Assembly (NCBI GenBank): GCA_018969885.1
Contig: JAGWXN010000067.1
Span: 1 to 12,700, forward strand
Reading direction: 5' to 3'
DNA length: 12,700 bases
Origin: Betaproteobacteria bacterium
GTDB lineage: Bacteria; Pseudomonadota; Gammaproteobacteria; Burkholderiales; Burkholderiaceae
Made by a program: the position numbers and the translations under genes. This document shows positions 421-12,700 of the stretch, one piece after another; the first letter of the stretch is position 1; every line of letters starts with the position of its first letter. The notes under the pieces are model-generated. The model was not told the DNA's origin, did not search any database, and worked only from the letters and a program-made list of their open reading frames with translations.

Positions 421-3400
421 ACCTGGGACGGCGGAAAATGGATCAGCGCTCAGTCCGCCGTCTCGATCGATGAGTTGGGCGAGGGGCTCGCGGCCGCGAT
501 CGAAGCGGCGACCGACGGCCTTTATGGCGCGAGCTATGCCGACGGTGTGATCACGCTCGCCTCGGGCGCGGGCGATCTTGCCGTGACGATGCGTCGCGAC
601 GCGCTACGCCTTGACGGTAAAGAGGTCGAGGTGAGCGAGGCCGATGAAGCGGCCGATACCCCTCGCACGCTTGATCTCAACGGGCTTGGCGTGATGCCCT
701 TGGCCGGCCGTTACGTGATCGGAATTGGCGCGCAGCAGTTCGCGTTTGTCGCGGGCCCGGTCACCCTGGGCCGGGCGGTGTCGCCGGGCCTCATCCGGAT
801 CGAGGGCAATCAGACGCTCAACGCCGGGCAGGCGCTTCGTCTGGGCATCGCCGGACCCGAGTCATTCGACCGGCTTGAAGTGACCGGTAGGCTCACCGTG
901 GCGGGCACGCTCGATCTGGTCTATGCCGAGATCGACGACGGCACCGGTGCACTCGCGCCCTTTGTTCCTTCACTGGGCGACGTGTTCGAGGGCCTGATCA
1001 CTGCGGAGTCGATCGTAGGCAGCTTCAGTGCCGCAGCCGGCCTCTTCGGCTATGACAACGGCGACACCGTTCTGCAGATTAATCAGGATGCGGGCGGTGT
1101 GAACCTGGAAGTGATCGAGCGTCCGCTTGCCGGCCAACTGGGCATCGCCGCGCACTCGAAGGCTGATGCCGATGTGCTTGGCATGTTCTTTAACGCGGAC
1201 TACTTCGGTAATGCCCGCGACTACCTCGCGGGCGCCACGCTTACCGCAGCCGAGTTCGTCACGGTCGATGGCCGCTTCCGCCTGCGAAGCGAAGCCACCA
1301 CCGTCACGCTGTCGGACAAGTCGGTGGCCGATGTGCAGCGCTGGACGCTGGGCGGAAGCGAGCTTTACGGCTTTGTCGGCTTGAACGGCCCCTATCGACT
1401 CGATACCGATCATGACCTGAACCTTGAAGAAGAGGCAGTCAATCCGTATGCGGTGGGCTTCGAGGTGGAAGGCATTGATGTTGCCTTCGTGCTGCACCTG
1501 GAGAATCTGGACGAACCTGCTGCGGGTGCGGAACCTGGCGTCATCGATCCGCGCGGCTGGTTGAGCGTGAGTGGCACGGCCCGCCGCGCCACCGAGTTCG
1601 GGCTCGATGTCATCAGCATGAATGCGGATGATTTGAAGCTCGAACTCAACCTGGGCTCCGACAACCGTACGGTGGTGGACTTTGGCGGCCCGGCGGCACC
1701 GTTACCCGGCTCAGCGGCTACGCCGACCACGCCGACCACGCCGACCACGCCAGCACCGGCCACCGGCCCCGCGCCGCTCACTGTCTTCACAGGCGGTCTC
1801 ACCGCAGAGGGCGACGATGAATCGATCACGCTCGACTTTTCCGGCAAGCGCGGCACCCTGATCCGCGCCTCGGGCAACCTCACTATTCAGGTCGCCGACT
1901 TCTTCTACGTGACCGGCTCGCTGGGTTTCGAGAAGTCCACCCAGGACCTGGTGCTTGCTGATGGCACCGAGGTGCGGGTCGACACGCTGATGTTTGGCGG
2001 CCAGGACCTCTACGCGTTCGCAGGCGTCGACGGCCCCTACTGGCAGGACACCGACGGTGACGGCCGCATCACAAATACCGACGAACCCGAGAGCGATTCG
2101 CTCGGTCTTGCGATCGGCAATGCGCAGTTTGGTCTGGTGATCGGCAGCGCGTCGCCTGAACAGTCCGATATTGCCGGCATGAACTGGGTCACCGCGAAGG
2201 CTGCGGCCGACTCGGTGGAACTGGTTGGCGTGGCGGGCCTCACGCTCGCCGCGCGCGACCTTGCGCTCGACATCAACCTGGTCAGCGGCGTGGCCGCCGG
2301 GTTCGACGCCGACCGGAAGGTCATTGATTACACCGCGGAAGGCTTCGAGCTCGAGGTGGTGACCGGTACCGGCAAGTCGCTCGCGATGGATGCACCGGGC
2401 GAGAAGGGCCAGCTGGTGCGCGCCTCCGGCGCGGTGGACCTCTCGATTGGCGGCTTTGTGGAACTGGGCGGCTCGCTTGCGTTCGAGCGCGCGCGTCAGG
2501 TGGTCACGCTCACCGATGGCACCCAGGTTCAGACCGAGATGATCACCATCGGCGGCACAGACCTCGACGGTTTCGTCGGCATTGGCCCCTATGGCGACGA
2601 TGCTGATGGCGATGGCGTATTCGAAAAGAGCGAGATCAATCCCGATGCGCGGGGCTTTGGCGTGCGCGACGTCGAGTTTGGCGTAGCGCTCTTCAAGGGT
2701 CAGGGTGCGTACGCGGATTCACGCTGGGTAACGGCCACCGGCGTGGTCGGTGGCGTGGATGTGATGCTCGGTCTTCCGGAAAGTCTGCGCTTTGACATTC
2801 ATTCGCTTGGCCTGTCAGCGAACCTGGTGAGCCATGAAGCGCCGGTGCTGAGCGGGCCGGCGGTGTCGCTGCCGCCTGCGCTCAAGCTCGACGCCACGAC
2901 AGGCGCGATCGACTTCGCGATCGGAAGCTTTGCAGGCAGCACGCCCGATGAGGTGGTGACGCTCACCCTCAAGCCCTCTGCCGGCACGCTCACCCTCGCA
3001 GGCTCGGATCTGCCGCTGTCGCGCACTGCAACCGACACGCTCACGCAGACCGCAAGCTTTGCGCTCACCGGCAATTTCGCGGTGGGCGATGTGATTCGGA
3101 TCGAGGGCATTGCAGAATCGGCTGCGGGCGACGGCGAAGAGGGCGGTGGCGAGCCTCAGGCGTTCGAATACACCGTGACCAACGAGGATCTGCTCGAGCG
3201 TGATGCTGAGGGCGAGATCATCGGCGCGGCGCCCGTGACCTTGGCCCTGCGCCAGATCGCGGCGTCGATCCGCGATGCGATCAACAACGCCGAGGATGAA
3301 TCGGTTCAGTTCATCGCGTCGGCCTGGTATGCCGGTGTGCCGTTTGATGCGCAGGGCAAACCGATTCCGGGTGCCGAGGCGCCAGACCTGGGAACGCTGA

Positions 3401-6400
3401 TCGTGCTCCAGGCGGTCGAGCCGGGTCGGGACAACGGTTTTGCGCTCGCGGTAAGCGTCGAATCCGATGAAGGCGCGGTGCTGCGGCTGGAAGCCGAGCA
3501 GACGCTCCCTGAGACCACGACCACCGACAAGCGCGCAAGCGACAACCTGAGCGCAGGCGTGACGCGCCTGGTGCTTACAGGCCCGATCTGGGCAATTGAT
3601 GACTGGCTTGGTCGGCACGCGCCGCTTCGCTATGCGGCTGCGGCCGGTGCGGGGACCGACGCACGACTCGACGTATCGCTTGCGAGCGGCGCGGCCGAGG
3701 CGGTCGCCTACGCGGCCATCACCGCCTCCGAGGGCACGACATCAGAAGACCATCCGATCGATTCGGTGGCAGACGACCGGGCCGACACCTTCTGGCGGAT
3801 CGAGGAGGGCGAGGGCGCGGGCTTTACCGTCTCGCTTGATCAGGAAACCGTGCTCGACGGTCTGCGGCTCACCTCGGTTTCGAGTGACGAGCTCTGGCAG
3901 TTCGATCCCAAGACCTTTGAAGTCTATGGCTCCAACGACGGCGAGGAGTGGGAGAGCGACAGCTGGACGCTGGTGGGCGAGGGCGACACGGGCTTGAGCG
4001 ATGTCCGCGGCACAACCAGCGAGGCGCGATTTGGCAACGCCATGCCCTATCGCTACTACAAGGTGGTGTTCACCTCGACCAAGGGGAGCTTTGACGGCGA
4101 CAGCTATCTGCAGCTCGCCGAGGCGCGACTGTTCCAGACGCAGGGTACGCCGTGGAAAGTCGAATCCAGTCTGCATCTGGACGGCGGCCGCGCGCTGCCG
4201 GCAGGCTTTACCGCAGGCGGCATCGCGCCCGTGGTCGAGGCCATGACGGGCAAGTTCTGGATCAAGGCCAATGCGCCCGCGAATCTCAAGTTCGACAACC
4301 TGACGCTGGGTCTTGCAGGCACCGCGGTGGCCAATGCCACCGATGCGCAGAAGACGCTGAGCGTCTCGCTTGAGGTGCCGCTCGATGAAGACGGCCGGCC
4401 CATCGGAAGCTTCGAGCTTCGGAACCTTCCGCCACAGAGCGGCGTGCAGATCACCGAGCGTACGGGCCTGGTCAAAGGAAGCGGCCTCACCTTCTCCGGA
4501 TCGGCCGAGGCAATCGCCACGCTTCTGAAGCGCCCCAACGTGCTGTTCTATACCGGCGCGCTCACCGATGTGGCAGTGAAGGTCACCGCTACCGCGACGG
4601 GCGCATCGTTTGCCACCTCGATCGCGCTCGCCGCGAACCAGGTCATCGATTACGCCGATCGCTCCACCTATAACGATGAAGGCGAGGTACTTACCGACGA
4701 CGACCGCGCGCTCGAAATCGCGACCGGCACCGGACAGTCGCTCAGCTTTGATTTTGACGGCAGCCGCGGGCCGCTCCTGCGCGCCACCGGCGGCGTCGAG
4801 CTGCAACTTGGTGGCTTCGTGGCCGCGGGCGGCACGATGGCAATCGAGAAGTCGTCGTCCACGCTCACGCTCGCCGATGGCAGCACCGCGGAAGCCGACA
4901 TCCTCACGATCGGTGGCGCGAACCTTCATCTCTTTGCCGGCATCAACGGGCCGTATCGCAGTGACACCAACGACGACGGGCTGATCAATCTCGAAGACGA
5001 GGTGAACCCGGACGCGCTTGGCGTCTCGGCGGTGGGCGGGGAGTTTGGCCTGGTGCTGGGCTTTGAGCGCACGCTGGGCGAGGCAGGCGAATCGGGTAGC
5101 GTGAATCTGAACGCCGGCCGCACCTGGGTGGCGCTCGAAGCGCGCGTGGCCGAAGCCGCGCTGGTGGGTGTGCCCACCATCACGGCAACGGGCCGCGACC
5201 TCGAGGTCGCGGTCAATCTGGTTCGCAACATTGCACCGGGCACGCTTGCCAACCAGCAGGTGATTGACTTCTCCGAGTCGCCGTTTACGGTGGCGACCGG
5301 TTACCGCAGCACCACCCAGCTCTCGATCGATGGCGCGCGCGGCGAATCGCTTCGCGCCTCGGGTGAGTTTGAACTCGAAGTTGGTGGATTTGTTCAGGCC
5401 CGCGGCACGCTCGCACTCGAAAAGTATTCAACCAACGTTCAGCTGGCCGATGGCACGCGCATGACCGCCGACACGCTCTCGGTGGGCGGCAGCAAGCTCA
5501 ACGCATTCGCCGGGATCGGTGGCGGCTACTTCACCGACAGCAATGGCGACGGTGCGATCGATCAGCTCGATACGCCTAATGCGGACGCACGCGGCTTTGT
5601 GCTCCAGGATGCGGAGTTTGCGCTCGCGCTGATGGCGCCCTCCACAGATGCCGAGACGCTTCTGTCGGCCGAGGCTGGTGCGGTCGGCGTGTTTGACTTC
5701 GTGCCGGGCAATGATGTGCTTGCCAACCGCATTGCGGAGGGTCCGTCGCTCACCCGTGTGGCGAGTGCGGTCGGGACGCTTATCGCTTCGCCTGGCATCT
5801 CGCCTTCGGGCGAGGGCGTCGCCAATCTGACCGATGGCAACGCCGGCACCAAATATCTCAATATGTCGGGCCCGGGATCGGGCTTTATCCTTGCGCTCGC
5901 CGAGCCGCAGGCGCTCGATTCGCTCGCGCTCACCACCCGCACCAACGACGACACCTGGCAGTGGGATCCCAAGACCTGGGAGGTCTGGGGCACCAATGTG
6001 GCGCCGGGCTGGGCGAATGCCACCAGCTGGACGCGACTTGGTCGCGGCGATACCGGCCTTGGGAACGGGCGTGGCGCCACCAGCGTTGTGGGCTTCGACA
6101 ACAGCACCTCCTACCAGTACTACAAGGTGGTGTTCCCCACCACCAAGGGTGTGTCGGGTGGCAAGCGGTACATGCACCTGTCCGAGGCGCGGCTCTTCAG
6201 TGCGCTTGAGCAGCATGCCGCGCTCACCGACGATGCGGGCGTACGTGCAGGCGGGGTGATCACCACCGCGGCGGGACCGGGCAACTATCTGATGCTCGAT
6301 CGCGGCGCGAGCGCTGAGCCGCTGGCCGATTACACGGTGATGTTCGATATTCAGTCTCCCGAGGACAGTCGCGCGCTGTGGCGAAGCCTCCTGCAGACGA

Positions 6401-9400
6401 GCGGCTCCAACGCCGATGATGGCGAGCTCTTCATCCATCGCGAGTCTGATCTCCTTGGCAATGGCGCGGGCGGCGACGGCCTGGGCTATCTCGGTACGCC
6501 AGTCGATGAGACCCGCTGGCAGCGCGTGGTGTTCGTAAGCGAAGCGGGTGCGAAGCGTCTTTATATCGACGGCGACCTGGTGGCGAGTGCCACCAGCACC
6601 GCGGCCCGCTACACACTGGGCTCGAAGGTGCTGTTCTTTGCCGATGACAACTTCGGTAATGCGCCGCTCAACGTCGGCAAGCTCGCGCTCTGGGAGCGGC
6701 CACTCTCAGGCGCCGAGGTGGCGACCCTTGGCACCGCCGAGCGGCTGGGCATGGATGCCTACGCGGGCACGCGCTGGAGTGCGCTGGAAGTGTCGGCTGC
6801 GAAGGTGGCGTTCGTGGGCGGCGATCAGCTCTCGATTGCGGCCAACAACCTGCTGGTTGAAGTCAATCAGGTGAGTGGGCTGCCCGAGGGCATGGACAGC
6901 CGCACGCGCGTGCTGGATCTGAAGGCAAAGCCCGTCTCAGTGGTGACCGGCACGGGCACCAGCCGCGTGATTGATATTGATGCCGACCGGGGTGAGTTGC
7001 TTCGCGCAAGTGGTGAAGTCGAGATTCGGGTTGGTGGGTTCTTCGCCACCGAAGGCTCGCTCGCCTTCGAAAAATCCACCCGCATGCTCACGCTCGATGA
7101 TGGTTCGCGGCGCGCGCACGACGTGCTCACGGTCGGTGCCAGCGACCTCTCCGCGTTTGCCGGCATTAATGGCGGCGGCAGCGTCACGCCAGGGCCCAAT
7201 GCGACGGGTTTTGTGCTCGAGGATCTCGAGCTCGCGCTCGTCATCGCGACCGAGCGCGAGTCGGTCCAGCAGGTGCTCGCCGGTCGGATCGAGTGGACCG
7301 ATGTGGCGATGTCGGGGACGGCCGCTGCTGGCGTGCCCGCGATTCAGGTTGCGGTGGCGGGCGGCGCGGCAGGCCGGGTGTATCTCTCCGATGACCAGGG
7401 CTTGAGCTGGCGTGATGCAGGCGCGCCGCGCGGCGATTACCGCGCGGTCTCGATCTCGTCTGACGGCAACATGATCGCCGCGGTGATGGCAAACGGTTTT
7501 GTCGTCACGTCGATCGATCGTGGGTTGAGCTGGGGTCTCACCAGCGCAGCCGGCGCGCCCTATACCGATGTGGCGATGCTGTCGCGTGATCGGCTGGTGG
7601 TGACCGACACCTTCGAGGCGGTGCGCTTTGACGTGTTCGATGTGTCGGGCCGGTTTGTGCCGGGCGATGTGGTGGGCCTGCGCGTCATGGGACAGTCCAC
7701 CGAAAGCTTCCAGGTGACGGTGCCTCAGCGCTCGGCCAACAGCGCGCCGCTGTCCCAGTCACAGGTGAATGCCGCGCTGGCCGCAGCGCTTCGTGCGCAG
7801 ATCAATGCCAAGTCGACCAGCGTGCGGGCGATGGGCGTGGGTTCGCTGGTGATTCTGGAAGCGCGTGAGGGTGCCACGGGCTGGGCCGCGGTCGATCCCT
7901 GGACCCTCCAGGGTCAGGTGGATCCGGTGAGCAGGTCCACTTTCTTCGGCTGGAAGGTGGTCAACGAGCCGCGCAGCAATTTTGGTAATTTTGATCGCGT
8001 CGCGCTTGGCAATACTGAGTTCGCATTGCTCACCGGACGCTTCGCGATCGGCGATCAGTTGATGGTGACGGGCTTTGCCGAGGAAGCGCTGGTCTACACC
8101 GTTACCGCGGGTGACCTGATCGTCCGTGGCACAGGCGGCAAGTTCCAGATCGGCACGCCCGAGCAGGTCCGCGTCAACATCGCGGCCGGCCTTGCGCGCA
8201 TGCTCGCCGCGCAGCCCACCGCGAGCGCAGTGGTGTCGCAGAGCGGTCCGATGCTCACCTTCACCGGCGAGACCGGCCGGCCGGCAATCCGCATCACGGT
8301 GGTCGCGGATATCGACTCGAGCGGCAACCCGCTCGGCTCGGGCGGCGTTGAGCAGGCGAATGCCTCGACCTATCGCGACGCCGTGGGCGCGGTTTCGGTC
8401 GGGGATTCGTCGGCGCCTTCAGGCTTCGTCGATACGCTTGCCCCGCGCGCCGATGCGCGCTTCACCGCGATCGATACCTTTGGCGCGGGCACGTCCATGT
8501 TCGCCGCGGCGGGGGGTCCGGTCTCTGGGGTATGGCAGAGCGGCGACCCGGGCCTCTTCATTGGCACGATTGAACCCGCGCGCACCGCGCCTGCGGTCGT
8601 GCAGTCGATCGCACCGATCAAGGGTGCCTCGCCTCCAGGCGAGGGCGTGGACAGTCTGCTGGACGGCAACTCAGCAACCCGGTACCTGAGCCTCGCCGGT
8701 CCTGGCAGTGGCTTTACGCTCACGCTCGACCAGCCCGACGCATTCAATTCGCTCACGCTGGTGTCGCGCACCAACGACGACAACTGGCAGTGGGATCCGA
8801 AGTCATTCAAGGTATTCGGATCGAACGATACCGGCGCGGGTAGCGGCGCCTGGCCGTTCGGCACCTGGACCGAGGTGGCAGCGGGCGCGACGGGGCTTGC
8901 GAATGCACGCGGCTCGGTCAGCCAGGTTGGCTTTGCCAATAACACCGCCTACCAGCACTACGCGGTGGTGTTCGTCGAGACCAAGGGTTCAGTGGGCGGC
9001 AAGAGCTATCTGCAACTTGCTGAAGCGCGGCTCGGTCGAACCGCACCGATGCCGGTGCCCGAGGCGCTCGGCATGACCACCGCAGCCTCGCCCGGCGCAT
9101 CACCCGCCAATCAGGGCATTGGTAACGTCAATGACCGCAATCCTGCGACCAAATATCTGAATCAGGCGGGTGCGGACAGCGGCTTTACGCTCGCCTTCGA
9201 TACGCCTGAGGCGTTCAACGCGCTGCGACTGGTCGCCGCCAAGGATGGCCCGGCGCAGTGGGATCCGAAGACCTGGCGCGTGCTGGGCTCGAATGTGAGC
9301 GGGAGCTGGACCGACGCGGTCTGGACCGAGCTCGGGTCGGGCGACACGTTCCTTGCCGACGCACGCGGCTCGTCCAGCGTGGTGATGTTCGACAACACCA

Positions 9401-12400
9401 CCGCCTACAAGTACTACGCGGTGGTGTTCCCCGAGGTGAAGGGTGTCTCAGGGGGCAAGAGCTATCTCCAGATTGCCGAGGCGCAGCTCTTCCGCGCGCC
9501 GCTCGGTTCACCGGGCGGCTCGCCGGTGGATCAGGCGGTCGACAAGGCCACGGACGGCAATCTTGGCACGCACTATCTGAACTTCGAGGCCAATGGCTCG
9601 GGCTATGCGGTCACGCTCGCAGCGCCTGAAGCGCTCGATACGCTCCTTCTCGTGTCCCGGCTGTCGAATCCGCTCTGGCCGTGGGATCCGTCCACCTGGG
9701 AGGTCTATGGCTCGGATAGCGCCGAGGCCTTTACCGATGAGGGCTGGGAGTTGCTGGGCGCCGGTGAAACCGGGCTGGCCGACACCCAGGGCTCGTCGCG
9801 CCTTCTGAATTTTGCCAATGATGTGGCCTGGCGCAGTTATAAGGTGGTGTTCCCGACGGTGAAGGGCGGCATGCCCGGGCTCGAGGCGATGCAGATCGCC
9901 GAGGCGCGGTTGCTCCGCTCGGCGGTGCCCGCGTCGCTCTCGCCGATGGCGGGCGACCAGGTGAACTGGACCGATGTCACGCGTAATGCACCGGCCGATG
10001 CGGCCTGGGCGGCGGTGGCGGCCAGCGAAAACGGCACCACGCTCGTCGCAGCGGCCGCGGGCGGACAGATCTGGGTCGCCAATACCGCTCAAGCCGATTG
10101 GGCGTGGGTCGCCTCGCAGGCCCCGCGTGCCTGGACCTCGGTTGCGCTCTCGGCCAACGGCCGCGTGATCGCGGCCGCAGCCGAAGGCGATCACGGCGGC
10201 ATCTGGGTGAGTGAGGATCGTGGCGCAAGCTGGCGCATGGTGCTCGAGACGGGCACGCGCGCCTGGCGGTCGGTTGCGCTCTCGGCTGACGGCAGCCAGC
10301 TGATTGCAGCCGCCGATGGCGAAGGCGTGTTCACGGCGCGGCTGGCAGTGGCGGGCGCCTCGCTCTCCACGCGCATTGCGGTGGAAGCTGAGGCGGGTAG
10401 CGTGTCGGTGGTCGGCATCAATGGCATCACGCTCGAGGTGCGCGATGCGGCGGTGAAGGTGAATCTTGCCGATCAATCCACCGGTCGGGTGATCGACTTT
10501 GCCGCGGGCGATGTCAGTGTCACCACCGGTACCGATCGCAGTCGCACCATGACGATTGACGGTGCTGATCAGGAGATGCTGTCGGTCACCGCAGGCTTCA
10601 CCATCGCGATTGGCGACTACGTCTATCTCGATGGCAGCGCGGGCTTTGAGAAGCGTACCGACACCGTGACGCTTGCCGACGGCAAGACCACCGTCAAGGT
10701 GGATGTCCTGGCGATCGGCGCGGCAGAGGTGAACGCGTTCGCGGGCCTGAACGGGCCGTATCGAACCGATACCGATGAGGATGGCGATATTGACGACGCC
10801 GACACGGTCAATGCCGATGCGGTGGGCGTGTCGATGACCGACGTGAACTTCGGGTTGGGCCTCTTCAGTGCGCAACCCGGCCAGAAGGACGCCGCGGGCA
10901 ACTCACTCAATGGTGTTCGCTGGACGGCGCTGGCTGCGGAGGCTGGCGCGATTGAGCTGGTGGGCATTCCCGATGTAACGATTGCGGCCCGCAGCTTCCA
11001 GGTTGAACTGAATCGCGTAAGCGGACTGCCCGCGGGCGTGGTTGCTGACCAGCGCGTGATCAACTTTGGCGGCAAGAACGCCTACCCGGTTCGTACCGGT
11101 ACCGACAGCACGATTGATCTGGCCATGTCCTCGGAGCTTGGCCAGCTGCTCAGGGTGAGCGGCGATGTTGATGTGTCGCTCGCTGGCGTGCTCAGTGTTT
11201 CCGGCGGCATTCAGCTCGAGCAATACCAGCGCACCGTCACGCTCACCGATGCAACGGATGAGCAGCAGGTGATCGAGGTGATGACCGGTGCCTTGCCGGG
11301 CGCCAACTGGTACCGGATGGTGATCGAGATCGATGGCGAGCGGTATCTGACGCGCGACATCCATGTGACTGAGACTGCGCAGCAGATCGAAGACGCGATC
11401 AATGCTGCAATCGACACGGTACCCGGCGCGCAGGTCACCGTGACCACCGAAGCCGACGGCGATCGCCCGGTGGTGCGCTTTGGCGGCAGCCTCGCGGGCA
11501 CCAACATCAAGCCGATCAAGCTGGTGGTGCCAAGCGTTGGCACGTCCTGGGCAGCCAAGGGTGATGTCACCACGCTGGTTGAAGGCGGAGAAACCCAGGA
11601 AGTGCTCGCCCGGATGCTGGTGCTGGGTGGCGCCGATGTCAGTGCGCGCATCGCCACCGGCGCAGGTGAGGAGGCGGTCGGGCTTGAACTGACGGATCTC
11701 GACTTCGCGCTTGCGTTTGCTGATTCGGTCGATGATGACCGGAGCTTCCTTGCACTCAAAGGCAGCGCCGCCTCGCTCGGCGTGGTCGGCCTTGAGCGCT
11801 ATGGCCTTGCGCTGATGGGCACCAACCTCGCGGTCAATCTCAATCTGGGCTTTGGTGATGACCCGCAGGGTGGCCGCAACACCAACACCATCAACTGGGA
11901 GGCGACACCGCTTACGCTCAAGCCCGGTACCGGCTCCCCGATTACGCTTGACTTCACCGACGAGGTGCTCGAAGTGGGCGGCTCGATGCTGGTTCGCGTC
12001 GGTGACTTCCTGCGGGTCGAGGGCACGGTCGTGGTGTCGCGGAAGACGCTTGATGTGACGGTCTCTGGCCGTACCGAATTCGTTCAGGGCTTCCTGATCG
12101 GTGCGTCGGATGTGTCGGCGCAGGTGCAGGGCATTTCGGTGGAAGGGTTGAACCTGGCGGCAGCGCTGCTGCGCCCGCTCGATGCACCTGACTTCGACAA
12201 GCGGGCCTGGCTCGCAGTGCGCGCGGAGGTTGACTCGGTGGCGGTCACTGCCGAGATGCTGGGGCTACCGGCCGAGCTCTTCACGCTCGAGGCGAACTCG
12301 CTCCTCTTTGAGACCAACCGTGCGATCGGCAGCCGGGCCGGCGTCGACAATGATGCGGTGGTTGATTTCTCGGTGACCGAAGTAGATGGTGAGACGATCG

Positions 12401-12700
12401 ACCGCTCGCTCGCGGTGAAAACCAACCTCGCGACCGATTCCACGGTATCGATCGAATATGGCGTGGATGCCGGGCAGTTCACCACGCTCACGCTCGATGC
12501 AAGTTTGAGCATTGCAGACTACGTCACCGCAAGCGGCAGCTTTGCGCTCTCCATGCTGGGCGGCCGGACGGTCACGCTGAGCGATGGCCAGCGCCGCTCC
12601 ATGCGCACCACGCTGATTGCCGCGCGAAACGTTGATGTCCGGCTGGGCGTCAACGCCGGATCGGAAGAAGACTTCATCGGCGTATCGCTCACGGGCGGCT
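1..12700 (+). CDS. Internal part of a giant modular surface/adhesin-like protein (start and stop both outside window)
   Basis: Frame +1 is open through the whole window (about 4,233 codons) with no stop and no convincing internal start, so both ends of the gene lie outside. The translation is rich in Gly, Ala, Asp, Val, Leu and Thr, acidic, and contains very little or no cysteine, as is usual for exported bacterial giant adhesins. Order of domains: beta-helix-like tail (residues 1-140), sheath-like domain (141-200), autotransporter-type beta region (261-375), then ten copies of a ~170-residue module (from residue 381), interrupted by discoidin-like, LamG-like, Asp-box propeller, cadherin-like and sheath-like domains. 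Family knowledge: such domains bind carbohydrate or calcium on cell surfaces. Inference: a calcium-stabilised adhesive scaffold. No signal peptide, LPxTG, RTX nonapeptide block or outer-membrane barrel is in view, so the secretion route is unknown. The continuous frame and repeated motifs make the coding call near certain; the function is moderate confidence. Confidence 0.97.
421..645 (+). other. Sheath/flagellin-like insertion domain, copy 1
   Basis: Residues 141-215 start with TWDGGKWISAQSA, followed by an amphipathic helix-like stretch (ELGEGLAAAIEAAT) and then GASYADGVITLASGAGDLAVTM. The plan is strand, helix with L..AI.A, then a strand pair around a G.ITL core. It matches four later copies (3061-3480, 7636-7980, 8005-8340, 11278-11562) and resembles the small alpha/beta domain seen in phage sheath, flagellin-hook and large repeat proteins. 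This copy is the most degenerate, and the GD..R..G opening is not obvious. Confidence 0.45.
781..1125 (+). other. Autotransporter/PEP-CTERM-type beta-strand region
   Basis: Residues 261-375 read SPGLIRIEGNQTLNAGQALRLGI, then FDRLEVTGRLTVAGTLDLVY, then PSLGDVFEGLITAESIVGSF, and finally TVLQINQDAGGVNLEVI. This sequence of motifs (start of helix cap, 'yDqL.VtG.a.l.GtL.v', 'P..Gd.f.il.a..v.GsF', and a closing '.l.v.L.v' strand) is well known at the end of beta-helical passenger regions of autotransporters and related surface proteins. It probably caps the helix before the modular part of the protein begins at base 1141. Confidence 0.6.
1141..1683 (+). repeat. Long module, copy 1 (divergent)
   Basis: Residues 381-561. 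The RASG/GGF portion is divergent (ARDYLAGATLTAAEFVTVDG), but the downstream order is intact: TVTLSD hairpin, LGGSELYGFVGLNGPY, the Asp loop at 1402-1437, then NPYAVGF, and a tail ending in LKLELNLGSDN before VVDF. The loop is degenerate: Gly at position 6 is replaced by Leu, and position 12 is Ala. As the first copy after the beta-helix cap, it may be a junction variant. The loop between the FVLHL strand and the RGWLSVSG tail is about 20 residues, the same site where copies 5 and 6 carry whole domains. Confidence 0.75.
1402..1437 (+). other. Degenerate EF-hand/dockerin-like Asp loop in module 1
   Basis: The 12-residue stretch DTDHDLNLEEEA keeps Asp at 1, 3 and 5, but Gly at position 6 is Leu and position 12 is Ala instead of Asp/Glu. 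Calcium binding is doubtful. Confidence 0.55.
1720..1752 (+). repeat. Short 9-base tandem repeat encoding a Thr-Pro linker
   Basis: The unit acgccgacc occurs three times and continues into a partial fourth. It encodes Thr-Pro-Thr repeats within a PTTPTTPTTPAPAT segment, a flexible, rigidly extended linker between module copies 1 and 2. Being a multiple of three it can gain or lose units by slippage without breaking the frame. Confidence 0.9.
1777..2289 (+). repeat. Long module, copy 2 (complete)
   Basis: Residues 593-763. All elements are visible in order: RGTLIRASGNLTIQ, DFFYVTGSLGFEKS, LVLADGTEV, FGGQDLYAFAGVDGPY, a canonical 12-residue loop DTDGDGRITNTD at 2047-2082 (Asp at 1, 3, 5 and 12, Gly at 6), DSLGLAIGNAQFGLVI, and the tail NWVTAKAAADSVELVGV...LALDINLVSG. 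The loop is of the EF-hand/dockerin/thrombospondin-3 kind and should bind Ca2+. The start is placed at the first residue after the Thr-Pro linker. I do not know a named family for the module as a whole. Confidence 0.8.
2047..2082 (+). other. EF-hand/dockerin-like calcium loop in module 2
   Basis: DTDGDGRITNTD has Asp at 1, 3, 5 and 12, Gly at 6 and Ile at 8, as in dockerin and thrombospondin type 3 loops. Predicted Ca2+ site. Confidence 0.75.
2320..2832 (+). repeat. Long module, copy 3 (complete)
   Basis: Residues 774-944. Opens with VIDYTAEGFELEVVTGTG, then KGQLVRASGAVDLSIGGFVE, GSLAFERARQVVTLTDGT, TIGGTDLDGFVGI-GPY, a loop DADGDGVFEKSE at 2599-2634 (position 12 is Glu, as in classic EF-hands), NPDARGFGVRDVEFGVALF, and the tail WVTATGVVGGVDVMLGLP...LGLSANLVS. 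It is one of the most regular copies and joins copy 2 through a short Asp-rich linker. Confidence 0.8.
2599..2634 (+). other. EF-hand-like calcium loop in module 3
   Basis: DADGDGVFEKSE has Asp at 1, 3 and 5, Gly at 6, a hydrophobic residue at 8 and Glu at 12, which is the classic EF-hand bidentate position. Predicted Ca2+ site. Confidence 0.75.
2911..3060 (+). other. Cadherin-like domain, N-terminal half (split)
   Basis: Residues 971-1020: STPDEVVTLTLKPSAGTLTLAGSDLPL followed by Thr/Ser-rich strands. The 'D..VTLTL....GTLTL.G' pattern is the first part of a bacterial cadherin-like/VCBS-like beta sandwich. Its expected second part, containing TRLVLTGPIWAIDDWL...LRYAAAAGAGTDARL, appears only after base 3481, on the far side of a different domain. 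The family assignment is by motif only. Confidence 0.45.
3061..3480 (+). other. Sheath/flagellin-like insertion domain, copy 2
   Basis: Residues 1021-1160: FALTGNFAVGDVIRIEGIA, an acidic Gly-rich loop, FEYTVTNEDLLERD, a helix IAASIRDAINNAEDESVQF, and strands LGTLIVLQAVEPGRDNGFALAVSV. The order G-D-x-I-x-x-G, YTVT, IA..I..AI, G.LIVLQA is shared with the other four copies. It sits between two halves of a cadherin-like domain and looks like an insertion. Confidence 0.6.
3481..3693 (+). other. Cadherin-like domain, C-terminal half (split)
   Basis: Residues 1161-1231: LRLEAEQTLPETTTTD, then LSAGVTRLVLTGPIWAIDDWLGRHAPLRY...GTDARLDVSLASG. The 'L.LTG....I...L....L.Y.......T..L.V...DG'-like pattern matches the C-terminal half of cadherin-like repeats, in which an 'aln..L' helix precedes a final strand pair. 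It probably pairs with residues 971-1020 across the inserted domain. Confidence 0.45.
3718..4140 (+). other. Discoidin/F5-8 type C-like domain, copy 1 (most divergent)
   Basis: Residues 1240-1380. Landmarks are DDRADTFWRIEEGEGAGFTVSL, LDGLRLTSVSSDELWQFDPKTF, EVYGSNDGEEW, LVGEGDTGLSDVRGTTS, YRYYKVVFTSTKG and SYLQLAEARLFQT. The 'D...T.W......F...L....L..L.L', 'WDP.T.EV.GSN....W' and 'Y.YYK..F......D.LQLAE..L' motifs are those of the galactose-binding-like jelly roll used by bacterial F5/8C lectin modules. It differs from copies 2-5 by FDPKTF in place of WDPKTW and by lacking the TKYLN box. Likely sugar-binding, but the ligand cannot be predicted. Confidence 0.75.
4396..4614 (+). other. Possible second cadherin-like piece
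   Basis: Residues 1466-1538 read GSFELRNLPPQSGVQIT, then GSGLTFSGSAEAIATLLKRPNVLFYTGALTDVAVKVTATATG. The 'L.FSG.AEAIATLL....V.FYTG' segment matches the C-terminal pattern of the domain at 3481-3693. The preceding region (4141-4395) has strand-rich sequence such as KFWIKANAPANLKFDNLTLGLAG that I cannot assign to a family. Confidence 0.4.
4642..5229 (+). repeat. Long module, copy 4 (complete)
   Basis: Residues 1548-1743. VIDYADRSTYNDEGE, then ALEIATGTGQSLSFDFDGSR, PLLRATGGVELQLGGFVAAG, MAIEKSSSTLTLADGS, TIGGANLHLFAGINGPY, the loop DTNDDGLINLED at 4963-4998, NPDALGVSAVGGEFGLVL, and a tail after a ~21-residue linker: RTWVALEARVAEAALVGVP...LEVAVNLV. Acidic residues insert between the VIDY opening and the TGTG box, making this copy slightly longer. 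The Asp loop has Asp at positions 1, 4, 5 and 12 and Asn at 3, and should bind calcium. Confidence 0.8.
4963..4998 (+). other. EF-hand/dockerin-like calcium loop in module 4
   Basis: DTNDDGLINLED has Asp at 1, 5 and 12, Asn at 3, Gly at 6 and Ile at 8. Predicted Ca2+ site. Confidence 0.72.
5260..5640 (+). repeat. Long module, copy 5, first part (split by insertion)
   Basis: Residues 1754-1880: VIDFSESPFTVATGYRSTT, RGESLRASGEFELEVGGFVQ, GTLALEKYSTNVQLADGT, VGGSKLNAFAGIGGGYFT, the loop DSNGDGAIDQLD at 5536-5571, and NADARGFVLQDAEFALALM. The tail that should follow directly is absent here and is found instead at 6772-6882, after a discoidin-like and a LamG-like domain. Pro in NGPY is replaced by Gly. 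Confidence 0.8.
5536..5571 (+). other. EF-hand/dockerin-like calcium loop in module 5
   Basis: DSNGDGAIDQLD has Asp at 1, 5, 9 and 12, Asn at 3, Gly at 6 and Ile at 8. Predicted Ca2+ site. Confidence 0.73.
5776..6204 (+). other. Discoidin/F5-8 type C-like domain, copy 2
   Basis: Residues 1926-2068: SGEGVANLTDGNAGTKYLNM, GPGSGFILALAEPQALDSLA, TRTNDDTWQWDPKTWEVWGT, LGRGDTGLGNGRGATSVVGF, YQYYKVVFPTTKGVSGGKRY and MHLSEARLF. The DGN.GTKYLN calcium/ligand-loop style box, the WQWDPKTW motif and the YYKVVFPT strand are shared with copies 3-5, with near-identical codons in places. Placed inside module 5 and directly followed by a LamG-like domain. Confidence 0.82.
6214..6735 (+). other. LamG-like (laminin G / concanavalin-like) domain
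   Basis: Residues 2072-2245: YLMLDRGASAEPLADYTVMF at the start of the jelly roll, RALWRSLLQTSGSNADDGEL, DETRWQRVVFVSEAGAKRLY followed by IDGDLVASATST, and closing NVGKLALWERPLSGAEVATL. The 'W.r.V.v......lYIDG.lv....' segment and the 'G.l.lW.R.LS..Ev..L' end are the hallmarks of LamG/concanavalin-like lectin folds in bacterial surface and secreted proteins. This is the only such copy in the window. Predicted role is glycan or matrix binding; no catalytic residues are seen. Confidence 0.8.
6772..6882 (+). repeat. Long module, copy 5, tail part (after insertion)
   Basis: Residues 2258-2294: RWSALEVSAAKVAFVGGDQL followed by SIAANNLLVEVNQVSG. This aligns with the tail W.AL.A..A.VELVGV..LT..ARDL...NLVSG of copies 2, 4 and 7, and completes the copy begun at 5260. 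The two parts are separated by about 1.1 kb of other domains. Confidence 0.75.
6910..7260 (+). repeat. Long module, copy 6, first part (split; Asp loop lost)
   Basis: Residues 2304-2420: VLDLKAKPVSVVTGTGTS, DRGELLRASGEVEIRVGGFF, GSLAFEKSTRMLTLDDGS, VGASDLSAFAGINGGG, then SVTPGPNATGFVLEDLELAL. Where other copies have a D.D.DG..... Asp loop, this one has a short Pro/Gly stretch, so this copy should not bind calcium at that site. The tail lies 3.1 kb downstream at 10354-10473. Confidence 0.8.
7285..7635 (+). other. Asp-box (BNR/sialidase-like) propeller blades, first group
   Basis: Residues 2429-2545. Two Asp-box motifs of the S.D.G.SW type are visible: SDDQGLSW (7387-7410) and SIDRGLSW (7510-7533). 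Each is preceded by the strand pattern AVSISSDGNMIAAVMANGFV. About three blades: WTDVAMSG...LSWRDAGAP, YRAVSISS...LSWGLTSAAGAP, and YTDVAMLSRDRLVVTDTFEA. No sialidase catalytic Arg triad or Asp/Glu pair is recognisable, so a binding or structural propeller (YCF48/VPS10-like) is more likely than an enzyme. Confidence 0.65.
7636..7980 (+). other. Sheath/flagellin-like insertion domain, copy 3
   Basis: Residues 2546-2660: GRFVPGDVVGLRVMGQSTES, FQVTVPQ, LSQSQVNAALAAALRAQINAKS, VRAMGVGSLVILEAREG, then a long Trp-containing strand stretch. The order GD..L...G, F.VTV, an Ala-rich helix and G.LVILEA is the same as copies 2, 4 and 5. It directly precedes copy 4. Confidence 0.6.
8005..8340 (+). other. 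Sheath/flagellin-like insertion domain, copy 4
   Basis: Residues 2669-2780: LGNTEFALLTGRFAIGDQLM, VTGFAEEALVYTVTAGDLIV, helix EQVRVNIAAGLARMLAAQP, and strands GPMLTFTGETGRPAIRITVV. This is the clearest copy: G.F..GD.L.VTG, VYTVTAGD, IAAGLA..L, and LTFTGETG.P. It follows copy 3 in tandem, between blade groups of the interrupted propeller. Confidence 0.65.
8452..8580 (+). other. Isolated propeller-blade-like segment
   Basis: Residues 2818-2860: ARFTAIDTFGAGTSMFAAAG, GPVSGVWQSGDPGLFIG. The strand layout (T.ID.F..GT..FAAAGG....W.S.D.GLF) matches the blades before and after it, but the Asp-box is degenerate (SGDPGLF). Its position between the sheath-like pair and the discoidin-like triplet suggests it belongs to the same interrupted propeller. 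Confidence 0.4.
8596..9042 (+). other. Discoidin/F5-8 type C-like domain, copy 3
   Basis: Residues 2866-3014: GEGVDSLLDGNSATRYLSL, GPGSGFTLTLDQPDAFNSLT, SRTNDDNWQWDPKSFKVFGS, TGLANARGSVSQVGFANNTA, YQHYAVVFVETKGSVGGKSY and LQLAEARL. It is the first of three tandem copies. The DNA around the TNDD.WQWDPK motif (8770-8799) is very close to that of copy 2 (5941-5970), suggesting a relatively recent duplication across a distance of about 2.8 kb. Confidence 0.82.
9043..9498 (+). other. Discoidin/F5-8 type C-like domain, copy 4
   Basis: Residues 3015-3166: MTTAASPGASPANQGIGNV, DRNPATKYLNQAGADSGFTL, FNALRLVAAKDGPAQWDPK followed by TWRVLGSN, LGSGDTFLADARGSSSVVMF, YKYYAVVFPEVKGVSGGKSY and LQIAEAQLFR. 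Complete, and head-to-tail with copies 3 and 5 with almost no linker. Confidence 0.82.
9499..9921 (+). other. Discoidin/F5-8 type C-like domain, copy 5
   Basis: Residues 3167-3307: DQAVDKATDGNLGTHYLNF, NGSGYAVTLAAPEALDTLLL, SNPLWPWDPSTWEVYGSDS, LGAGETGLADTQGSSRLLNF, WRSYKVVFPTVKGGMPGLEA and MQIAEARLLRS. It diverges at several otherwise constant places (WPWDPSTW, WRSYK, GLEAMQ instead of GKSYLQ), so it may have a different ligand from copies 2-4. It ends the tandem array. Confidence 0.8.
9955..10353 (+). other. Asp-box (BNR-like) propeller blades, second group
   Basis: Residues 3319-3451: VNWTDVTRNAPADAAWAAVA, VAAAAGGQIWVANTAQADW, WTSVALSANGRVIAAAAEGD, then Asp-box SEDRGASW at 10210-10233, and finally WRSVALSADGSQLIAAADGE. 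About three blades, with the repeated W.SVALSA(N/D)G....AAA strand pattern. The opening WTDV echoes the start of the first group at 7291, and the last strand leads straight into the tail of module 6. Confidence 0.65.
10354..10473 (+). repeat. Long module, copy 6, tail part (after 3.1-kb insertion)
   Basis: Residues 3452-3491: STRIAVEAEAGSVSVVGING followed by ITLEVRDAAVKVNLAD. This aligns with the tail A.EA.A..V.LVG...LT...RDL.V..NLV of other copies and completes the copy begun at 6910. It is followed at once by the VIDF opening of copy 7. Confidence 0.7.
10489..11025 (+). repeat. Long module, copy 7 (complete)
   Basis: Residues 3497-3675: VIDFAAGDVSVTTGTDRSRT, FTIAIGDYVYLDGSAGFEKR, TVTLADGKT, IGAAEVNAFAGLNGPYRT, the loop DTDEDGDIDDAD at 10768-10803 (Asp at 1, 3, 5, 7, 9 and 12), NADAVGVSMTDVNFGLGLF, and tail RWTALAAEAGAIELVGIP...FQVELNRVSG. 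The RASG box is replaced by SVTAG. Its Asp loop is the most acidic in the window and a strong candidate for calcium binding. Confidence 0.8.
10768..10803 (+). other. EF-hand/dockerin-like calcium loop in module 7
   Basis: DTDEDGDIDDAD has acidic side chains at positions 1, 3, 5, 7, 9 and 12, Gly at 6 and Ile at 8. Strongest predicted Ca2+ site in the window. Confidence 0.75.
11056..11853 (+). repeat. Long module, copy 8 (split inside its TLTD hairpin)
   Basis: Residues 3686-3951: VINFGGKNAYPVRTGTDST, LGQLLRVSGDVDVSLAGVLS, GGIQLEQYQRTVTLTD, then an inserted sheath-like domain (11278-11562), after which the module resumes with TQEVLARMLVLGGADVSARI, GLELTDLDFALAFADS, FLALKGSAASLGVVGLERYG and LALMGTNLAVNLNLGF. 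The NGPY segment and the Asp loop are both missing. The insertion site differs from that of copies 5 and 6. Confidence 0.75.
11278..11562 (+). other. Sheath/flagellin-like insertion domain, copy 5
   Basis: Residues 3760-3854: VMTGALPGANWYRMVIEIDG, ERYLTRDIHVTETAQQIEDA, INAAIDTVPGAQVTVTTEAD, GDRPVVRFGGSLAGTNIKPI. The elements are a YRM.I.IDG strand pair, the helix TAQQIEDAINAAID, and strands VTVTTEADG...VRFGG. It is inserted between the TLTD and LVLGG strands of module 8, in frame and without disturbing the flanking motifs. Confidence 0.6.
11890..12330 (+). repeat. Long module, copy 9 (short, divergent)
   Basis: Residues 3964-4110: INWEATPLTLKPGTGSPITL, EVLEVGGSMLVRVGDFLRVE, GTVVVSRKTLDVTVSGRTEF, LIGASDVSAQVQGISVEGLN, LAAALL, then tail AWLAVRAEVDSVAVTAEMLG, LEANSLLFETNRAIG. 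RASG, NGPY and the Asp loop are absent; the core strands of the module and the tail remain. Confidence 0.65.
12358..12700 (+). repeat. Long module, copy 10 (cut by window end)
   Basis: Residues 4120-4233 and beyond: VVDFSVTEVDGETIDRSLAV, TLDASLSIADYVTASGSFAL, RTVTLSDGQRRSMRTTLIA, NVDVRLGVNAGSEEDFIGVS. The opening, the TLSDG hairpin and the final GF/GV segment are present, while the NGPY and Asp-loop elements are missing as in copies 8 and 9. The module tail and further copies probably continue beyond the window. Confidence 0.7.

Follow-up and report, generated by a model that had tools for sequence, protein, structure and literature searches.

Long β-meanders, exemplified by the β-belt of apoB100, are among the systems to which the protein described here may be closest. 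The LEPR-XLL giants (NCBIfam NF012209, LEPR-8K) are, as we take the model name to imply, encoded by very long reading frames, a description that the 4,233 or more residues encoded here also fit. Nested domain insertion is itself already known, and passages of one survey (PMC13114784) report that about 20% of multidomain proteins contain insertions and that nesting reaches six levels in cyanobacterial RNA polymerase. What differs in the 12,700-nucleotide stretch of betaproteobacterial DNA analyzed here (contig JAGWXN010000067.1, hereafter the window) is that the host is an array of modules, with domain insertion that is repeated and nested. We consider it likely that the window encodes a central stretch of a giant LEPR-XLL-type protein, in which a conserved belt of ten modules hosts nested cargo domains at specific loops.

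Frame +1 runs uninterrupted over the full window, giving 4,233 residues truncated at both ends, and comprises ten copies of one module of ≈165 residues that no Pfam or NCBIfam model matches. All features described in the window lie on the + strand. Copies 1 (1219..1686, residues 407-562), 2 (1825..2337, residues 609-779), 4 (4744..5274, residues 1582-1758), and 7 (10546..11067, residues 3516-3689; our reference for the six-strand fold) are unbroken, and copy 9 (11956..12372, residues 3986-4124) is followed by a tenth copy cut by the window end (12448..12699, from residue 4150). A hidden Markov model (HMM) of the module was trained without copies 5 and 6 and then used to search for their halves. 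It matches copy 5 as two parts (5317..5646, residues 1773-1882, and 6763..6924, residues 2255-2308; E = 2e-33 and 7e-11), with a break after residue ≈1880, a restart at 2255, and ≈372 residues (1.1 kb) between strands 4 and 5. Copy 6 is likewise matched in two parts (6964..7254, residues 2322-2418, and 10360..10506, residues 3454-3502; E = 3e-26 and 5e-8), breaking after residue 2418 and restarting at 3454, again between strands 4 and 5, around 1,035 residues (3.1 kb). Copy 8 (11113..11262, residues 3705-3754, and 11608..11904, residues 3870-3968) is interrupted between residues 3754 and 3870, where 115 residues are inserted into the hairpin that joins strands 2 and 3.

These results bear out a first-pass annotation of the same DNA, which had placed the splits of copies 5 and 6 at one point with inserts of about 1.1 and 3.1 kb, had noted short linkers at that point in copies 1, 2, 4, and 7 (as the module HMM also finds), and had located the split of copy 8 elsewhere, in a hairpin. 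Its count of two defined loops was too low. Copy 3 (main part 2383..2841, residues 795-947) is split at a third, after strand 6, where ≈600 residues of cargo (residues ≈948-1545) precede a closing strand, NQVIDY (4636..4653, residues 1546-1551), and cargo domains also take guests of their own. We count copy 3 as split because orthologues have the same module continuous without cargo.

The cargo of copy 3 (2842..4635) contains a VGD-type domain (residues 1018-1159) and a discoidin domain (residues 1238-1380). That of copy 5 (5647..6762) comprises a discoidin (residues 1926-2067) and a LamG domain (Pfam, residues 2109-2241), an assignment made in the first pass that holds above the Pfam cut-offs: discoidin cargo scores 41.5 against a gathering score of 27.8 for F5_F8_type_C_2 (PF22633) and 37.1 against 28.2 for F5_F8_type_C (PF00754), and Laminin_G_3 scores 32.8 against 27.6, rising to 38.9 bits in a scan of the isolated cassette. 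Read by eye only, the first LamG strand lies ahead of the discoidin; a search for free-standing LamG relatives bearing on this discoidin-within-LamG arrangement matched eight proteins on contigs of 680-2,895 bases, and the nesting stays a by-eye reading. No solved relative of this cassette was found at E up to 1.

The cargo of copy 6 is a propeller that is itself a host. Its first piece lies at 7255..7620 and its last, with three clear blades, at 9952..10344. Nested within it are two VGD-type domains (7630..8322, residues 2544-2646 and 2672-2774) and three discoidins (8602..9921, residues 2868-3014, 3025-3166, and 3170-3307), separated by a probable blade (8458..8580) that was read by eye, has a near-noise profile score, and is poorly modeled. 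The model of this cargo forms a closed ring of blades that aligns over a complete six-bladed propeller, and its best Foldseek matches are CBM32-containing chains; the earlier propeller assignment is borne out by the structure model and not by Pfam, where BNR stays below its cut-off (16.6 of 27). The cargo of copy 8 (11263..11607, residues 3755-3869) is one small domain without an assigned family. The term sheath-like, which the first pass had used for this and other cargo, finds a weak match to phage tail sheath for copy 8 (phrog_165, E = 0.034; viral Foldseek rank 8, E = 0.19) and no PHROG match for the other small cargo domains scanned (six pieces scanned, one weak sheath match). Viral Foldseek searches returned zero matches at E below 0.001, and a viral origin was rejected, as none of 197 pattern-matching stretches in viral contigs encodes a relative.

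To place the window among its relatives, we draw on 54 loci from one scan of genome contigs, mostly labeled Betaproteobacteria or families thereof, or "uncultured bacterium," with a few each from Verrucomicrobia, Planctomycetota, Desulfobacterota-type bacteria, and Thermoplasmata; Magnetococcales, Gammaproteobacteria, and Sulfurimonas contribute a single locus each. Counting the window and P0001 as well, 69 frames yield 667 module matches at E below 0.01. The near relatives of the window are L001, L008, L019, and L020 (86-98% identical). The module-bearing giant frames in Thermoplasmata, L030 and L031, come from archaeal metagenome-assembled genomes and are without an M50-HlyD match; transfer or a binning error is possible. 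In L052, the complete chromosome of Ramlibacter terrae, the module region is split into many frames, a pattern that either decay of a giant gene or erroneous sequencing would explain.

Cargo states were read from alignments to 20 orthologous frames combined with gap lists, with ragged gap placement in several of the distant alignments. Relatives lacking cargo at the same place, which the first pass had proposed to compare, exist. Copy 5 cargo occurs beyond the window in L001 only and is missing from all 15 site-covering relatives outside this lineage (L002-L007, L009-L016, and L018); most simply, it would be a gain in the window's lineage. Copy 6 cargo is present in L001-L007, L009, and L010 and replaced by short linkers in L011-L015 and L018. 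Copy 3 cargo is present in L008, L019, L002-L005, and L017 and absent from L006, L007, L009-L015, and L018; its discoidin is missing in L002, where the flanks adjoin directly, and has no match in L003-L005 and L017. Copy 8 cargo measures 115 residues in L001, L020, and L002 and 473 residues in L004 and L005, and is absent from L006, L009-L015, and L018, with L003 and L007 stopping at or before the site (L016 is unclassed for copies 3, 6, and 8). The loops between strands 2 and 3 (loop 2-3), between strands 4 and 5 (loop 4-5), and after strand 6 (loop 6-next) of individual modules carry whole domains in some orthologues and none in others, with module order and predicted fold kept. The reverse history, in which cargo-bearing modules are ancestral, short linkers arose by deletion, and the loops are deletion sites, appears unlikely. 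The copy 6 propeller and the copy 3 cargo, common to several lineages and missing in others, suit loss as well as gain; however, the copy 5 cargo is absent even from L002 and L003, the closest relatives outside the lineage, and discoidins were amplified separately in two lineages, at different places.

Piece-wise mapping of the window's modules onto those of L002, L004, L010, and L012 (ten modules each) and the truncated L003 (seven) argues for insertion within single modules. All three pieces of copy 5 choose the same unbroken module in L002, L003, and L010; the three pieces of copy 6 are concordant in L002, L003, L004, and L010; and those of copy 8 are concordant in L002 and L004, with mapping ambiguous throughout in L012 (Magnetococcales). 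Tandem repeats readily recombine, and discoidin and module repeats are detectable here at the DNA level, so one could imagine that cargo once lay between two complete modules whose facing halves were deleted, leaving copies 5 and 6 as chimaeras of neighbors. We judge this origin very improbable because every piece of copies 5 and 6 best matches one orthologue module in L002, L003, and L010, and module order is identical with or without cargo. Cargo lying only between complete modules, a pattern that the first pass had set against its own reading, is contradicted by the alignments and the gap lists.

Structure prediction agrees with insertion into intact modules. In the split modules, six strands are predicted with good per-residue confidence (predicted local distance difference test, pLDDT) with the cargo in place, and both parts follow the same strand order, in line with the single fold that the first pass had expected; no separately folding parts are predicted. 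That cargo-carrying modules are instead unfolded, degenerating spacers in a very long protein is the least credible alternative, for which the low overall predicted template modeling score (pTM) of the copy 6 model speaks, and against which stand the six confidently predicted strands, the alignability of split modules with intact orthologues, and a frame that is open throughout. The earlier picture of a display platform with permissive loops is upheld as regards the loops, by cargo inside single modules and by cargo-free homologues; the display role is putative.

Inserted domains turn into hosts themselves. Whereas the propeller of copy 6 hosts the two VGD-type domains and three discoidins in the window, two discoidins sit instead within the second VGD-type domain in L002, of which profile positions 2-40 of 106 are detected before the discoidins and the remainder was recognized by eye; nesting in L002 is probably three levels deep. 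Three VGD-type domains likewise interrupt the cargo domain of copy 8 in L004 and L005. Discoidins (18 matches to a profile from the window's five copies, which distant ones may escape) are confined to L002 and the window's lineage. A tree of 17 copies separates those of the window's lineage from those of L002, except for L001_3228, which falls with L002; four window-L001 pairs are seen, and L008 and L019 supply the partners of the copy 3 discoidin. Such a grouping agrees with copies duplicating inside the gene and then inserting at different hosts. In our reading, discoidins multiplied within the gene, and the hosts that carry them differ between lineages. Within residues 4104-4386 of L002, the two discoidins are out of phase, the insert by eye starting with a discoidin tail strand, and the last copy is without its tail strand (profile 3-125 of 144), resembling a tandem array cut at a different point. 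The loop 6-next cargo of L029, L049, L026, L028, and L045 spans 588-1,071 residues and is mutually related, with zero matches to the copy 3 cargo of the window; by eye and unscored, it repeats a copy 8-like domain.

To learn which loops accept cargo, we examined 636 aligned module matches, with the window and P0001 included and L052 dropped for its many broken frames. Extra residues pile up at profile positions 47 and 51 (loop 2-3), 76 (loop 3-4), and 107 (loop 4-5). Five or more extra residues occur in none of the 636 matches at loop 1-2 and in one match, at most six, near loop 5-6, and a check of truncated matches revealed no real cargo in either loop; four candidates, from the window and L001, proved to be over-extended matches at copies 5 and 6. 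Domain-size cargo occupies loop 2-3 in seven rows (window, L001, L020, L002, L004, L005, and L021), loop 4-5 in 13 (two each in the window and L001, L002-L007, L009, L010, and L021), and loop 6-next in 13 (window, L008, L002-L005, L026, L028, L045, L029, L038, L048, and L049). The gaps of L006 and L007 listed as P2-P2 were scored as loop 4-5 because the second P2 falls in a propeller blade. By our reading, the rows collapse to about seven independent sites, and all seven falling in three of six loops has p = 0.008 if all loops are equally likely. Were the six strands arranged as a simple antiparallel meander, one edge of the sheet would hold loops 2-3, 4-5, and 6-next and the other loops 1-2, 3-4, and 5-6. 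Cargo would then be confined to one edge, with the other keeping tight turns or a calcium-type DxDxDG loop. The function we infer is that of a tolerant scaffold, exposing mostly glycan-binding-type cargo on one side of a secreted or surface fiber.

Of 610 modules, 207 have a DxDxDG-type motif at loop 3-4, where inserts reach up to 62 residues; EF-hand-like DxDxDG loops lie at window positions 4948-4980 and 10753-10784 and in other modules, on the presumed non-cargo edge. Loop 2-3 is longer by 25 or more residues in 86 of the 636 aligned modules across all loci, and a distinctive module whose loop 2-3 is extended (TGLP...LSxDYSR, by eye) recurs in L023-L025, L029, L032, L034, L039, L040, L042-L044, L046-L048, L051, L054, and P0001.

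Several points weigh against this reading. The one-edge rule would be carried by about seven independent sites only, two of which, in L021, contain no recognized domain. Many long gaps were excluded by eye before counting: as likely hidden degenerate modules, P3-P1 gaps of 268-273 in L029, L038, L046, and L051, P3-P2 gaps of 190 or more, P2-P2 gaps in L026, L033, and L050, and P1-P3 gaps in L035 and L036; as calcium-type repeats, gaps of 85-160 in L024, L026, L033, L039, L040, L042, L044, L053, and P0001; and also a doubtful P1-P2 gap in L053, a P1-P2 gap of 62 in L049, and a P3-P1 gap of 148 in L044. How the strands pair, whether they run antiparallel, and the single edge are all read from the order of predicted strands. 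Overall quality of the copy 6 model is mediocre (mean pLDDT 69.8, pTM 0.44, residues 423-545 under 50), and the alignment behind it (A4; A5 and A6 misplaced more rows) misplaces parts of seven orthologues, threaded onto the first discoidin. The copy 8 cargo is modeled at pLDDT 47-79. The first piece of copy 5 scores slightly higher on a neighbor module in L004 (129 versus 126, the other two pieces agreeing), the first piece of copy 8 prefers a different module in L010, and the hand-placed last long piece of copy 3 matches no clear orthologue module. Finally, the cargo at copies 3, 6, and 8 is compatible with either gain or loss. With these points counted, we still favor a conserved belt, its core formed by ten modules of six long predicted strands each, that takes cargo at particular loops.

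The link to LEPR-XLL giants comes from the orthologues, as the window begins inside the gene and so is without the N terminus where the motif would sit. The motif scores above cut-off in the module-bearing frames L038 and L043, is present in all nine orthologue genomes searched, and lies near the N terminus of the orthologous frames G001:C81 and G002:C9. These frames span 13,891 and 14,142 residues from stop to stop, with modules detected at ≈7,337-9,720 and 8,376-10,121, and the giant frame of G007, home of L001, runs for at least 12,265 residues before the contig ends.

Five frames on the same strand directly follow the giant in G007 (C4:28320-37309, L095; also L078 and L079) and resemble, in order, OEP/TolC, HlyD, HlyD, M50-HlyD, and, in a short frame, SecA, the OEP and HlyD homologues being identified by blastp. 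A set of this kind also stands beside the giant gene in G001 and G002, on the upstream side in one genome and on the downstream side in the other, with OEP and HlyD Pfam matches over cut-off. In all seven genomes tested, a strong match to SecA (436-449 bits) is accompanied by one or more weaker matches (125-321 bits) adjoining an M50 gene, the weaker frames being mostly shorter than SecA, with an exception of 1,358 residues in G013. An M50 match occurs in 25 of 29 genomes behind part of the loci (none in G004, G014, G015, and G020). Across 200 genomes of one order, a sample that includes G002, the source of the query, the LEPR-XLL motif occurs in 23, M50-HlyD in 25 at E at most 1e-70, a threshold picked after viewing the lists, and both in 21 (Fisher p = 2e-22). 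At E 0.001, M50-HlyD occurs in 22 of 23 LEPR-XLL-positive genomes versus 28 of 177 others (p = 1.5e-14), with at most five candidates scored per genome and p values in both comparisons that ignore kinship. A tentative extension, which we hold with less than even confidence, is that a one-edged, ten-module docking strip evolved for reuse, takes nested cargo only at the loops of that edge, and is part of proteins of ≈14,000 or more residues that are exported by dedicated machinery in which a short SecA-like ATPase and an M50-HlyD protein replace the ATP-binding cassette (ABC) transporter of TolC/HlyD systems.

If correct, this would make the belt a natural scaffold, tested by evolution, whose permissive loops are defined and whose empty and occupied sites are both documented, and it would inform how proteins accept internal domains. 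The LEPR-XLL giants would receive a first anatomy, and the neighboring cluster would be a candidate export route for proteins over a megadalton. Searches of the open-access literature, several of them combining many terms, turned up no account of the module belt, of cargo loops and nesting within it, or of the neighboring gene cluster, and passages of PMC10868602 and PMC9611531 gave none of the belt.

Compared with described systems, the orthologues share the motif of the LEPR-XLL giants, whose model (NF012209) covers only a short N-terminal motif of 24 positions. The neighboring cluster resembles type 1 secretion in its TolC-type OEP and HlyD-type adaptor and is without an ABC transporter gene among its five G007 frames (28,320-37,309), ABC genes elsewhere not having been searched for. 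The cargo matches the discoidin/CBM32 and LamG families, but is placed inside the loops of other domains. The model of the copy 6 cargo aligns over the whole ring of six-bladed propellers such as NHL domains and Pizza6 (presumably six-bladed, from its name); unlike in these, two VGD-type domains and three discoidins interrupt the copy 6 propeller, which may have six or seven natural blades. The likeness to the nested insertions described in the survey passages (PMC13114784) is that of a domain interrupting a domain, recursively; unlike them, the host here is a tandem module array in which the same loops are reused and nesting varies among relatives.

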